Of a DNA stretch of 33,219 bases, positions 27,887-33,219 are shown in pieces; position 1 is the stretch's first letter; every line of letters starts with the position of its first letter. The DNA comes from Bacteriovorax stolpii (GTDB lineage: Bacteria > Bdellovibrionota > Bacteriovoracia > Bacteriovoracales > Bacteriovoracaceae): NCBI GenBank assembly GCA_945905815.1, contig CAMDQH010000025.1:1-33219 (forward strand), given 5' to 3'. The notes under the pieces are model-generated. The model saw only the letters and a program-made list of their open reading frames with translations, had not been told where the DNA came from and made no database searches. The position numbers and the translations under genes were made by a program.

Positions 27887-28408
27887 TTAAAGCCCAGTAG
27901 ACTCAAGTTGTTCTTTCTCACGTGCCTTATCAATTTCCTTCAGTTTGTTATCTGTAGCGATTAGTCTTTCGATGCGGTAAAGAAGAGTCTTTTCAATAAT
28001 CCCATCAGCTGGCACCTCTTTCCAACCTTGAAGAAAATCCTGCTCCATTAGCTGACGTTTATAAATTGTGACCTTGGTGACTTCGCGCGAAGCCCGGAAA
28101 CCACGTACAACGTTTACAACAAGCTTAAACTTGGCAGCTTTAACTGAGTCCGAAGAGCCAAATGAATCCGTAAAATTCACTTCCAGCGTATTGTCCATCC
28201 AGCGGGTTTTGATAAAACCAGCTTCCTGATTCTGTTGTGCGATATCGTATTTGCGCATAACCTGTATGACCGCTTGCCATGACTGGTTATAGTCTGCTCG
28301 GTAGATTTTACTAGGGATATCGAGCTCTTCGGTCACCTGACGGAACTTTTCGTAGTTCGCACACCCATTTAATAGAGGCACAAGGATGATAAAAAGATAA
28401 AACTTCAT
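27887..28408 (-). CDS. Outer-membrane lipoprotein, unknown function
   Basis: This 173-residue lipoprotein has lipobox LLNGC (Cys16). The mature part has a pattern of one domain with a helix (NQSWQAVIQVMRKYDI) and paired strands (AGFIKTRWMDNTLEVNFTD, KFKLVVNVVRGF, VTKVTIYKRQLM), then a charged C-terminal helix. The segment 'helix, then xGFIKTRW' recalls BamC-type domains, but similarity is too weak to name it. ATG 28408 has no ribosome binding site; TATCAT sits 7 bases before it. It is divergent from kdsD with about 50 bases between starts. Confidence 0.7.
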   Translation of the reverse strand: MKFYLFIILVPLLNGCANYEKFRQVTEELDIPSKIYRADYNQSWQAVIQVMRKYDIAQQNQEAGFIKTRWMDNTLEVNFTDSFGSSDSVKAAKFKLVVNVVRGFRASREVTKVTIYKRQLMEQDFLQGWKEVPADGIIEKTLLYRIERLIATDNKLKEIDKAREKEQLESTGL

Positions 28409-28459: not shown

Positions 28460-29452
28460 ATGAACCATAAAAATCTCTTCACCCAGGTATTAGTCTCTGA
28501 AGCGAAGGCCATAGAAAGAGCAGCTCAGAACTTTGATGAAAAGACAGTAGTTCAATTGGTCTCTTTGTTTGAATTATTGGCCGGAACTGGCGGAAGCTTA
28601 GTGGTTTGTGGTGTGGGCAAGTCTGGCCATATCGGAACTAAGATTGCTTCGACTTTTTCTTCGCTCGGTCTTCCATCATTTTTTCTGCATCCAACTGAGG
28701 CCATGCACGGCGATTTAGGACGAGTTTCCAAAGCCGATGCCATCCTCTTAATTTCCAAATCGGGCACAACTGAAGAAATTTTAAATCTTTTGCCTTACCT
28801 GTTAATTCCTAAAGAAAGGATAGTCGCACTGGTTGGGAAAGTGAATTCTCCTATTGCAGAAAAATCCGGTATTATCCTGGATGCTTCGGTTGAAAAAGAA
28901 GCCTGTATCAACGATCTTGCGCCAACAACAAGTACAACTGTTGCTCTTGCTTTGGGTGATGCCATGGCAGTTCTCTATGAAAATGTTTTAGGCGTATCGA
29001 AAGAGAAATTTGCGGTCAATCATCCAGCGGGCCTCCTTGGAAAAACATTAAGTTTAAAAGTAGAACGTTTAATGATTCCGGCCAGTGAATGTCCTCAGGT
29101 TGATGAGAAAGCCACTCTTCAAGATGCCATCATGGCGATGACACAAAAGCCTGTAGGGATGTGCGCGATCGTGAACGGTGGATTGATGAAAGGCATTTTA
29201 GTCGAAGGTGATATTCGTCGCGCATTTGCTAAAAGGGCCGATGCGATTCAAATGCCAATCAGTGAATTTATGAATGCGAAGCCAACGACTTTATTACCTA
29301 CAATCCTGGCTTTTGAAGCTTTGAAAGTGATGGAAGATACTGATCGTCCACTTAGCGTTATTCCGATCGTGGAGAATGGAAATTTTCTTGGAGTACTTAG
29401 GCTGCATGATTTATTTAAGGCCGGCTTTCACTCTTCCAAAACGATTATTTAA
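28460..29452 (+). CDS. kdsD: Arabinose-5-phosphate isomerase
   Basis: KdsD/KpsF converts ribulose-5-phosphate to arabinose-5-phosphate, the precursor of KDO in the LPS inner core. The N-terminal SIS domain (about 30-190) contains GVGKSGHIGTKIASTFSSLG, FFLHPTEAMHGDLG (catalytic His region) and SKSGTTEEI. Two CBS domains follow (about 205-325: ATLQDAIMAMTQKPVGMCAI and the last copy ending IVENGNFLGVLRLHDLF). The 330 residues match the family exactly. GGAAAG precedes ATG 28460. Together with the lpt genes in this window it indicates KDO-containing LPS. Confidence 0.96.
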   Translation: MNHKNLFTQVLVSEAKAIERAAQNFDEKTVVQLVSLFELLAGTGGSLVVCGVGKSGHIGTKIASTFSSLGLPSFFLHPTEAMHGDLGRVSKADAILLISKSGTTEEILNLLPYLLIPKERIVALVGKVNSPIAEKSGIILDASVEKEACINDLAPTTSTTVALALGDAMAVLYENVLGVSKEKFAVNHPAGLLGKTLSLKVERLMIPASECPQVDEKATLQDAIMAMTQKPVGMCAIVNGGLMKGILVEGDIRRAFAKRADAIQMPISEFMNAKPTTLLPTILAFEALKVMEDTDRPLSVIPIVENGNFLGVLRLHDLFKAGFHSSKTII

Positions 29453-29585
29453 TCTCCTCAGAACATCTTTTCTAGTAATTAAGGCGATCGCCGCAGCTTT
29501 CTGAATGAGATCATTTGGAAGTCTTAACTCCATTTAACGTAGGCATATAGAAGTAGTGCAAGGGATTTTTTTAATGAAGTTGTTT

Positions 29586-29616
29586 CAAAGACTCTCTTTT
29601 AGCAAGAGAGTCTTTG
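29586..29616. terminator. Long hairpin between convergent genes
   Basis: A 13-bp perfect stem (29586-29598 with 29604-29616) around a 5-nt loop lies 9 bases beyond the stop of the minus-strand gene and about 130 bases after kdsD. There is no adjacent T-run on either side, so termination efficiency is uncertain. Confidence 0.6.
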
Positions 29617-29625
29617 AAGATAAAA

Positions 29626-30207
29626 TTAATGATTAAGCATTTTTGTTTTTACAGGTTCTAGTTCGATGACAAATTTAGCACGCCCTTGAGCTTTTAAGGT
29701 AAACTGAGTTGTTTCTTCAAGAGAGATCGTTTGCATTCTTGTGGCATTACCCAAAAAATTTCGAATCGAAGCGCGAAGACTTCCTGTCAGGCCGGCATCG
29801 TTATCAGTTTTTCCAGTTACGACAGCATCTGCCACTAAAAGGTCATAGACATTATCAATATCGTTGTGCAGAGAGAAGATGGCCGGTCGGTAGAACATAT
29901 CGACAATAATTTCTTCGCTTGTTATGACATAAGATTTATTTGAGATGCACTCACTCTTATCAGATTCAGTCCAAAGACTTGCAATGTCAGATTTGCCTGA
30001 CATAACTAAACAATCCGACTTCGCGCTTTGTGATAAAAGACCAGCCTCTGAATTAAAACGGATAAAGGCCCTTGTTGGGGTAAGCTTTCTGGTGTTACCT
30101 AATTCGTCATAGTATCGACCTGTGACTTTGAATTTTGTTTCAAGAATATCTGCTTGAGCAGCAAAAGTTGCTAATGTGGCCAAAACTAAAAGTGCGATCT
30201 TTTTCAT
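29626..30207 (-). CDS. Secreted protein of unknown function
   Basis: Starting at ATG 30207 (AGGAG upstream) gives 193 residues with a standard signal peptide (MKKIALLVLATLATFAAQA). The mature part appears beta-rich, with two cysteines (SDCLVMSG and KSECISNKS) that could form a disulfide. No family is recognised. The upstream in-frame ATG at 30252 would bury the signal and is rejected. It is probably monocistronic. Confidence 0.72.
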   Translation of the reverse strand: MKKIALLVLATLATFAAQADILETKFKVTGRYYDELGNTRKLTPTRAFIRFNSEAGLLSQSAKSDCLVMSGKSDIASLWTESDKSECISNKSYVITSEEIIVDMFYRPAIFSLHNDIDNVYDLLVADAVVTGKTDNDAGLTGSLRASIRNFLGNATRMQTISLEETTQFTLKAQGRAKFVIELEPVKTKMLNH

Positions 30208-30519
30208 ATCTTCTCCTGATTGGTTAAGTAAATTGAAACAAGTATCTATCAAAAAAGCTCGCCTAGGTTAGAGATTGGAATAATGTTCCTAGGGTGTATA
30301 ATTTTTGAACAGCTCTAAGCTACTGGTTGGGCAATGCTGGTCAAGGCTATCAGAGCGCAGAGAATTGAAAATAGTGTCTTAATTCTATTTTCTGTAAGCA
30401 CGCTTCCCGAAAAATGAAAAGAAATAGAGTAAAATCAATCACTTGAGGAGAACTAAAACGCAAACTCAATCTTCTTAAGATGTTTACCGATAAATAACAG
30501 TAATCATAAGGGGATAATC
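30208..30519. other. Intergenic stretch between divergent genes
   Basis: About 310 bases without a gene. One hairpin is visible: GAAAATAG (30367-30374) with CTATTTTC (30385-30392), 10-nt loop. It must contain both divergent promoters, but I could not assign convincing -35/-10 pairs. AAGGGG lies before the ATG at 30520. Confidence 0.35.
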
Positions 30520-33060
30520 ATGAAATTTACTTTTATTATTTTGGCGTTTGTTTTTTCGGTTGGGTCTTGGGCCCAAACCTACACTGATCCATGTAATTCA
30601 CAAAATCTTCAACAACTCCTTGCAGGTGTTGAAAATGGTTTCCACAGTAGAATCGAGGCAAATAATTGTTTAAAAAAAGCTAAAGATACTGGGTCACCAG
30701 TAAAAGCAACACAAGTAGATGGTAAACAAAATACTTGGGGGTTTGAATTCAAAGTTGGAGAAAAAATTACGACTCGTTACCTAAAACTTAATAAGAAGGA
30801 TTTCTTTTTAACTAATACGTTGCTCGGAAAATACAAAGCTAACGATACTAACCGAAAAGAAAACAAAGCAATGAATAAAACGAAATTTATTCCAGCTGAA
30901 TGTATTGAGTTTTCTACTGAGATCTGTTCTCGCATGAATCCTCCACAAGATTTCGACGGAGATTATTGTAAGTGCGTAGATAAAGATGCAGTTTATTGTG
31001 GTGACAAGAATTGGTCATTTGAGAAAAAAGATAAATCTCACAAAAAGTGTGATGAAAGAGAAGATCATGTTTGGGATGATACGACTTGCGAATGTTCTAA
31101 GGAAAAGTTTTGCGGTGTAAAAGAATGGAGTAAAAATAAAAAAGAAAGTGAAGCTGAGAGTTGCCTTGGTAAAAAAGGTACAGAATGGGATGACGAATCC
31201 TGCTTATGTACCGAAATTAAATACTGTGCTGAAAAGAAGTGGAGCCTTAAAAAACTTGAAAAAGAAGAGTCTGGTTGTTCTGAGAAAAAAAATCACGTTT
31301 GGAATCCAGATACATGTTCATGTGACACAGATACGAATACAACAGTGATGTGTAAAGGGAAGCCTGTTGATGCTTTGAAAATGAAGGATGAAGAAAGACG
31401 TTGTGAAGAAAAAAGCACTAACCAGGTTCATTATTCATGGGATGAAATCGAGTGTCGCTGTGATAAAGAAAAAATGACCGTTATTTGTAGTGGTGAAACT
31501 GTTGGTCAGGCAAAACATGATCGTAAGAAGCAAAGATGTATGGAAAGACAGGCCAAAGATGATCGCTGGTCATGGGACGAAGATCAATGTGATTGCATTA
31601 AAAAAGAAGACCCAGAAGATCACCCTCTGTGCGGTGAAAGAAAAATGTCTCAAAGAAAAATTGATCGTAAGAAAAGCCGCTGCGATGGGATCAAGGGTGA
31701 GTGGGATCCACAAACTTGTAAATGTAAGGACCCATGCTATGAAGTCGAGGAATGGAAAGATGAAAAGCTTGAAACTTGTACAGACACTGTGCCAAAACTT
31801 GGTGATGTCGCATTCGATGACTTGGGTGCCAAGGTTTGTGAGAAGGCCATACCTGATGCTGAAAAAGCTGAGATGAAAAAACAATGTAAAGAAAAAGTAG
31901 AAGAAGCATTTAAACAATCTCCAGACCAGTCAGAACTTACTCCTATAGAGATCGAAATTGATTACACGTTTAAGGGGCAAGTGCTTTGTGCTGAAAAAAT
32001 TGTTGCCGTTAATAGCACAAAAGAAATCCAGCGCGCTCTACCTTCAAACGTCCCAACTACTGATCCAAAAGCCTTCTCAGAAAACTGTCCGGCCACACTG
32101 AAGGGTGATCTTTATGAATACCGCAATAAGGTAATTAATTGTGTCGAGATGGAACAGGTCAAAGGTGGACATGCCGAGATTCTAAAAGCTGCCAACGATC
32201 CCTTCGATGAGTTCTTTACTAAGCTCAATATTGTAGGTCAAATTTCTGCTCAAGAAATGGATAAACTTCTTGAGACATCAATCTTTAACTTAGAAGTAAT
32301 CGGCACTGCTAATAGAAGTAATAATGGCACAGGTATAACTCTGGATGCCCTGGCCTTAAAGAGAAAGCAAGAGGCGGAAAGAATTATCAGAGCTGAACTG
32401 ATAGCCAAAATTCAATCAAAAGTTGCGGGTGGGACCTACGTGGTGAAAAATACCGAGAAACTCATCACATATAATGGCGGGATCTCACAGGCAGTAGGCC
32501 CGCTTAATCCCAAAGCCAGCTCTTCCTCAATGCACAAAGTGCTTGCGGAAGCGGAAGCTCCTGCAGAGCTAAAGAAATGTGCTACCGGTGCAAATGGAAA
32601 ACCGGCCACAGACACCAAAATGATGTATGCGTGTTCAGTGAACTTTTTCGTTGATAAAGAATGTCCGACTCTTGACCGAGAACTTCATAAGAAACTTTGT
32701 GACGGTAGTCCAGAAGAATTAAAAATTAAACTCATGGCCTATGACGACGTAGAAGATCTGGAAGAATATAAAATGTTTCAGGTTGGCGTTGGCATGAGTA
32801 CGGAAACGAGGACCCCTGTCTATGATGATGTTGGAACCATTAAAGTTAAGTGCTCTGCTGGCATCACAACCGAAGATGTATCGGAAACCACGACCACCAT
32901 TACAGAAATGCTAAAAGTGACCAAGCCAGGATTTTTTAGAAGAATGAAGAAAGACTGCCGGGAAGAAAGAAAAATCTTGAATGAAAAGTATGGCAGAAAA
33001 AATGTACGTAAAGCTGCCAATCACAGAAAAAACCCTGGCGGTATTGTAATCGGTGAATAA
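30520..33060 (+). CDS. Large secreted protein with six tandem four-cysteine repeats
   Basis: An 846-residue exported protein (signal peptide MKFTFIILAFVFSVGSWA, cleaved near residue 18). Residues 160-402 hold six tandem repeats with C-x16-C, then 6-11 residues, W-[DN]-x3-C-x-C. Cysteines are at 160/177/190/192, 198/215/228/230, 236/253/266/268, 278/295/312/314, 323/340/357/359 and 371/388/400/402. A degenerate first unit (128/136/150/152) precedes them. The repeats are very rich in Lys, Glu and Asp. The WDxxxCxC ending recalls Balbiani-ring/VEGF-C silk-type cysteine motifs, a pattern-level similarity only. Residues about 580-640 (FNLEVIGTANRSN, then ALKRKQEAERII) weakly resemble an OmpA-like domain. 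The basic C-terminus ends in KNPGGIVIGE. The protein is probably disulfide-bonded, in periplasm, envelope or outside. Function is unknown. AAGGGG precedes ATG 30520. Confidence 0.8.
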   Translation: MKFTFIILAFVFSVGSWAQTYTDPCNSQNLQQLLAGVENGFHSRIEANNCLKKAKDTGSPVKATQVDGKQNTWGFEFKVGEKITTRYLKLNKKDFFLTNTLLGKYKANDTNRKENKAMNKTKFIPAECIEFSTEICSRMNPPQDFDGDYCKCVDKDAVYCGDKNWSFEKKDKSHKKCDEREDHVWDDTTCECSKEKFCGVKEWSKNKKESEAESCLGKKGTEWDDESCLCTEIKYCAEKKWSLKKLEKEESGCSEKKNHVWNPDTCSCDTDTNTTVMCKGKPVDALKMKDEERRCEEKSTNQVHYSWDEIECRCDKEKMTVICSGETVGQAKHDRKKQRCMERQAKDDRWSWDEDQCDCIKKEDPEDHPLCGERKMSQRKIDRKKSRCDGIKGEWDPQTCKCKDPCYEVEEWKDEKLETCTDTVPKLGDVAFDDLGAKVCEKAIPDAEKAEMKKQCKEKVEEAFKQSPDQSELTPIEIEIDYTFKGQVLCAEKIVAVNSTKEIQRALPSNVPTTDPKAFSENCPATLKGDLYEYRNKVINCVEMEQVKGGHAEILKAANDPFDEFFTKLNIVGQISAQEMDKLLETSIFNLEVIGTANRSNNGTGITLDALALKRKQEAERIIRAELIAKIQSKVAGGTYVVKNTEKLITYNGGISQAVGPLNPKASSSSMHKVLAEAEAPAELKKCATGANGKPATDTKMMYACSVNFFVDKECPTLDRELHKKLCDGSPEELKIKLMAYDDVEDLEEYKMFQVGVGMSTETRTPVYDDVGTIKVKCSAGITTEDVSETTTTITEMLKVTKPGFFRRMKKDCREERKILNEKYGRKNVRKAANHRKNPGGIVIGE

Positions 33061-33063
33061 TTC

Positions 33064-33095
33064 AATGATCCCCTTCTTAAATGAAGGGGATCATT
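33064..33095 (+). terminator. Strong hairpin after the cysteine-repeat gene
   Basis: A 13-bp perfect stem (33064-33076 with 33083-33095) and a 6-nt loop start 4 bases after the stop codon, followed by an AT-rich but not pure T stretch. It is a likely terminator. Confidence 0.75.
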
Positions 33096-33219
33096 TATAA
33101 TTATATTTAGCGAGAAGTCTGTGTAAAGTTCAGTGTGTTGCTAAATTAAGAACGTATTCTGTACTTGATACTCTTTCTGCTGCTATCGACGAGTTTTTAT
33201 TGTTCAAGACCCAGATATT
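33096..33219. other. Right-edge non-coding sequence
   Basis: AT-rich sequence to the window edge with no reading frame or promoter that I can support; probably the upstream region of the next gene. Confidence 0.3.

Follow-up and report, generated by a model that had tools for sequence, protein, structure and literature searches.

The window, namely the whole stretch of 33,219 nucleotides analysed here from Bacteriovorax stolpii (assembly GCA_945905815.1, contig CAMDQH010000025.1), carries near its end a forward-strand open reading frame of 846 aa (30520..33060), which starts with ATG, leaves 159 bases between its stop and the contig end, and is supported over its whole length by orthologues with the same architecture. 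A Shine-Dalgarno-like AAGGGG (30508..30513, forward strand) was recognized in the sequence 6 bases 5' of the ATG. The encoded protein begins with a Sec-type signal peptide (aa 1–18; 30520..30573, forward strand) according to sequence and hydropathy, with the cleavage site placed by eye between SWA and QT. The hydropathy maximum of the protein was located at aa 3, and no later 19-residue stretch exceeded 0.55, indicating no further membrane segment. The signal peptide and the lipobox were both assessed by eye; no lipobox cysteine followed the signal peptide, the nearest and first cysteine being aa 25, preceded by YTDP, and the protein was thus not taken as a bacterial lipoprotein. A secreted protein had been proposed by an earlier reading of the same DNA (the sequence-only reading), and the Sec-type signal agrees with it. 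The whole protein contains 43 cysteines, two of which lie in the N-terminal region (aa 19–127; 30574..30900, forward strand) delimited by alignment and a low-confidence model.

The central feature of the protein is an array of seven four-cysteine units, six of which are full. The full units follow C-x16-C-x(11, 12 or 16)-C-x-C, each with W-x4-C-x-C, and together cover aa 160–402 (30997–31725). All of them are on the forward strand: unit 1, aa 160–192 (30997..31095); unit 2, aa 198–230 (31111..31209); unit 3, aa 236–268 (31225..31323); unit 4, aa 278–314 (31351..31461); unit 5, aa 323–359 (31486..31596); and unit 6, aa 371–402 (31630..31725), with a longer loop before the tryptophan in units 4 and 5. 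The cysteine gaps of units 1 to 6 were 16,12,1; 16,12,1; 16,12,1; 16,16,1; 16,16,1 and 16,11,1 residues, and the distances from the second cysteine to the tryptophan were 7, 7, 7, 11, 11 and 6 residues, respectively. The six units with exact C-x16-C and W-x4-C-x-C, as well as the linker of 6, 7 or 11 residues between the cysteine pairs, were already described correctly in the sequence-only reading; its count of 24 cysteines also holds, while the end it gave (31728) lies three bases beyond the last cysteine codon, which ends at 31725. The full units are preceded by the shorter seventh unit, C-x7-C-x13-C-x-C (aa 128–152; 30901..30975, forward strand). When the region was shuffled 20,000 times, six 16-residue gaps never occurred (0/20,000), and any single gap length of at least 5 occurring at least six times was found in 83 shuffles. 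The repeat region consists of 48% K/R/D/E/H with a net charge of −4 and a pI of 6.0. Direct repeats in the DNA of the array were short and weak only, thus the units are old, and a recent DNA duplication was rejected as the origin of the array.

AlphaFold run on a four-sequence alignment of the whole protein gave a mean pLDDT of 59.6 and a pTM of 0.36. In this model the repeat units were alike, each with a strand-helix-strand pattern at a pLDDT of ~55–80, in which a helix of ~13 residues stops close to the second cysteine and W-x4-C-x-C lies within a two-strand hairpin. The model suggests, with moderate confidence, that the module is a hairpin-helix-hairpin.

Relatives were searched in 58 genomes first and then in 369 genomes of the phylum. 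The gene was present in four of the 369, namely the source genome, G010, G007 and G049. G010 and G007 are MAGs of the same genus, and their orthologues have six units each and are 47–48% identical to the window protein, while G049 is a MAG of another family with an orthologue of four units and ~30% identity. Comparison of the 22 units of the four proteins (6 + 6 + 6 + 4) revealed four invariant cysteines and an invariant W/Y-x4-C-x-C in 22/22, with a first gap of 16 residues in 17 of the units and of 17 or 18 residues in the remaining five. The longer gaps were found in unit 5 of the two close orthologues (17 residues) and in the distant orthologue (16, 17, 18 and 17 residues), whose four units align with units 3–6. 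C-x16-C had been regarded as invariant in the sequence-only reading, which is true for the window protein and too strict for its relatives (16, 17 or 18 residues). Homologues with lost cysteine spacing, which it had named as evidence against such a module, were encountered in a mild form only, since the first spacing drifts by 1–2 residues.

Among the three same-genus proteins, 24/24 repeat cysteines and 9/10 tryptophans of the repeats were unchanged, compared with 22/41 lysines and 16/31 glutamates, and most other residues vary; conservation of all 24 cysteines in the two orthologues supports the proposed repeated cysteine module as real. The four cysteines of the short unit were kept in the two close orthologues and not in the distant one. 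For units 2, 4, 5 and 6 the best match across species was the positional counterpart (units 1 and 3 were not clearly resolved), and the long-loop units occupy the same places of the array in other species; therefore, the array predates the divergence of the species. Between the G010 and G007 orthologues, dN was 0.074 and dS 1.155 for the whole protein (dN/dS ~0.06), and dN was 0.063 and dS 1.805 for the repeats, showing purifying selection. The neighbouring citrate synthase of the same two genomes had a dN of 0.017, thus the cysteine-repeat protein evolves about four times faster.

Of the 25 other genomes in the genus, 23 lacked the gene, high-quality ones included, and 2 of the 12 high-quality genomes (completeness table) carried it. 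A failed search does not account for this absence, because the nearby SIS/CBS-domain isomerase-like gene (28460–29452) was found in 23/26 genomes. Beyond the four orthologues, no other protein of the 369 genomes contained the repeat at E < 0.01, and the weak repeat matches within the genus were partial with E of at least 0.02. Scanning genome contigs gave no match with the single protein as seed and the same three orthologues only with the alignment; for the distribution outside the phylum, seed scans of genome contigs were the sole source. A phage or plasmid origin was rejected, as there was no tblastn match in phage and plasmid collections, no relative on viral contigs and no significant PHROGs family. 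With most of the genus lacking the gene, a core role in predation can be excluded.

The gene neighbourhoods also differ. The window gene adjoins the isomerase-like gene; in G007 and G010 the orthologue is found elsewhere, with the same neighbours in both, between a 150-aa open reading frame and a gene which we take, by eye, to be citrate synthase. The differing neighbourhoods together with the patchy presence show that this is an accessory gene which has moved or has undergone more than one gain or loss. The site downstream of the isomerase-like gene is variable in the genus (window 29453–33219; L044:81-1226). An apolipoprotein N-acyltransferase-like gene directly follows the isomerase-like gene in G025, G010 and G014, and in the closest relative G019 a different open reading frame of 381 aa with a hydrophobic glycine/alanine-rich middle is present there. 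Two further open reading frames of the window lie close by on the reverse strand. The first (29626–30252) has an apparent signal peptide (from MKKIALLVLATLATFAAQA, ~195 aa), is patchy (3/26 genomes of the genus: the source, G016 and G010) and gave no significant family match in Pfam or NCBIfam. The second (27887–28408), beside the isomerase-like gene, encodes a lipoprotein-like product of 173 aa, is conserved at this place in G019 and G021, and has a weak match to NlpB/DapX (Lipoprotein_18) with 18 bits vs a cut-off of 25. Near the distant orthologue (L011:17354-21427), a 1357-aa lipoprotein-like open reading frame was noticed, whose many tandem repeats have W-x-R-x-T/S-x-x-P at their ends and may be Ig-like.

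These data bear on the main rival reading, that the repeats form a binding surface; the protein would then act in adhesion or contact, its charged modules binding the prey envelope or an extracellular polymer and the length of the array tuning avidity. A surface, adhesive or prey-contact protein had been considered possible in the sequence-only reading. In favour, the host is a freshwater member of a predatory bacterial group, the modules are highly charged (48% K/R/D/E/H), the number of units differs between lineages (six vs four), and the surfaces vary on a fixed cysteine frame. However, the gene is lacking in the same 23 of 25 further genomes of the genus and almost throughout the phylum, there is no surface anchor or secretion-system partner gene, and the repeat region is near neutral (net −4), unlike basic heparin-binding modules; these points argue against it, and we consider a binding role rather unlikely.

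No significant match of the window protein was obtained in Pfam, NCBIfam, PHROGs or PDB sequences, in agreement with the sequence-only reading, which could assign no known family; a match of the repeats to a described domain family, which would have spoken against a new module, did not occur. That reading had pointed to a resemblance with the eukaryotic silk-type motif (Balbiani ring/VEGF-C), and this part was not borne out. PF03128 scored 12.5 bits vs the curated cut-off of 15 (E = 0.21), and the repeat profile built from 16 units matched nothing in the PDB except the VEGF-165 heparin-binding domain at E = 1.3, both scores being within chance. The BR3P/CXCXC family (PF03128; Balbiani ring 3 protein, VEGF-C/D silk homology domain) has in common with the window protein short tandem cysteine repeats in secreted proteins and an acidic/aromatic, W/D-rich turn before C-x-C. 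Moreover, unit 6 ends with C-x-C-x3-C, with an extra cysteine three residues on, in 4/4 proteins. In contrast, the BR3P repeat pattern is C-x10-C-x-C-x(1,3)-C (PMC10328876), which no unit fits: the gaps before C-x-C are 11–19 and never 10, a cysteine 1–3 residues past C-x-C occurs in the last unit only (x3) with a gap of at least 5 otherwise, and the units of the four proteins possess an extra cysteine 16–18 residues upstream with a predicted helix between. Since the rest of the protein also has no eukaryotic look, membership of BR3P/CXCXC was rejected, and there is only a very slim chance that this bacterial array and the animal silk-type repeats are related.

The VEGF-A165 heparin-binding domain (PDB 1kmx, 1vgh, 2vgh) offers a helpful parallel to a module with four cysteines and two disulfides, as it is composed of two beta-sheet subdomains with two disulfides each (PMC3568127). 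It is strongly basic (pI about 11; PMC3568127) and has two units, whereas the window repeats have a pI of 6.0 and six units; the similarity to the solved domains was non-significant (best E = 1.3), and membership was rejected. Bacterial cysteine-rich repeats in NCBIfam and Pfam likewise combine repeated cysteine motifs with export, but no such model reports the window protein or its orthologues.

The array is followed by a linker and cysteine-containing region (aa 403–540; 31726..32139) opening with a conserved DPCY, a C-terminal core (aa 541–740; 32140..32739) with V-[IM]-GTANR-[SN]-NN and R-x2-EAER, and a C-terminal end (aa 741–846; 32740..33057), all on the forward strand and delimited by alignment, together with the model for the core. 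Conservation between the same-genus orthologues is highest in the C-terminal end (96% and 64%). AlphaFold of aa 528–740 alone gave a pLDDT of 80.6 and a pTM of 0.73, and the fold matches of this model include Pal, FopA, OprF and MotB (E 3.1 to 7.8). The conserved C-terminal region is suggestive of OmpA-like domains (PF00691; Pal, OprF, MotB) at a non-significant level, with a predicted order like theirs of a strand with G-x-x-[DN], a helix with L-x-x-x-R and subsequent strands. An hhalign comparison with five OmpA-like domains from the source genome (E = 0.24) placed VIGTANR against VEGHCDE and LALKR against LGERR. In OmpA-like domains, an Asp and an Arg bind the peptidoglycan peptide; in this alignment, itself non-significant, the Arg is present, while GTAN has Asn where Asp is usual, in 4/4 proteins. 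OmpA-like membership is not claimed, as Pfam gave no PF00691 match at E up to 10, the profile E was 0.24 and the fold matches had E of at least 3. Wider relatives of the C-terminal domain were also rejected: the five weak matches inspected were ordinary unrelated genes matched by chance, which by eye we take to be of the elongation factor G type, the chemoreceptor type, two iron-type alcohol dehydrogenases and a transglycosylase.

DsbB is encoded in the same genome, together with six matches to the DsbA family, and the means to oxidise an exported protein with 43 cysteines are thus present. The N-domain of DsbC was not found in the genome; an isomerase is expected to help if pairing is not between successive cysteines. 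The oxidising export compartment bears on the alternative that the four cysteines of each unit bind zinc or copper and the product is a secreted metal-storing or scavenging protein. A tetrathiolate site could be built from the four conserved cysteines of a unit, of which two form C-x-C; however, export into a compartment with DsbA/DsbB, the lack of a zinc-ribbon or metallothionein family match and the lack of an obvious adjoining metal-transport gene in the loci read make such a metal array improbable. All four proteins have an odd cysteine total (43, 43 and 43 in the genus, 33 in the distant orthologue). Outside the four-cysteine units, 15 cysteines are common to all four proteins, 13 C-terminal ones aligning in all four and two N-terminal ones matched by local sequence, and the distant protein has two more. 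The odd number of shared cysteines suggests one interchain disulfide, forming a dimer, or a free thiol.

On balance we lean, with moderate confidence, towards an exported accessory envelope protein of Bacteriovoracaceae, periplasmic or at the surface, with a disulfide-locked modular stalk or spacer. In its favour are the spacing of the repeats, their unchanged cysteines and nearly unchanged tryptophans under purifying selection, the age of the array, the Dsb proteins of the genome, the like pattern of the modelled units and the cysteines shared outside the units. The repeat protein would be exported by Sec and then oxidised by DsbA/DsbB. Each unit of ~32–40 residues would comprise the first cysteine, a W-containing turn, a charged helix of ~13 residues and the W-x4-C-x-C hairpin, probably closed by two internal disulfides. 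Six such units, 5–11 residues apart, may form a soluble, highly charged stalk or spacer, stiff and resistant to proteases, which would join the small N-terminal region to the larger conserved C-terminal region. Against this stalk reading, there is no anchor, sorting signal or partner gene for a surface location, the gene neighbourhoods differ, the DsbC N-domain is missing from the matches in the genome, and the AlphaFold model was built on four sequences. A more far-reaching combination, in which a new disulfide-locked fold serves as stalk or binding array, the C-terminal domain of the envelope protein represents a new family and the odd cysteine links dimers by a disulfide, all in a few members of the predatory Bacteriovorax group, is put forward only tentatively and is doubtful at present.

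In conclusion, the export signal (by eye), the even-cysteine module and the oxidising compartment are all those of disulfide-rich secreted proteins with tandem modules, and the array is an uncatalogued repeat of this well-known general kind. The narrow distribution makes broad importance unlikely, and tandem four-cysteine modules of such spacing, which have no Pfam or NCBIfam entry, point to a small uncatalogued domain family.
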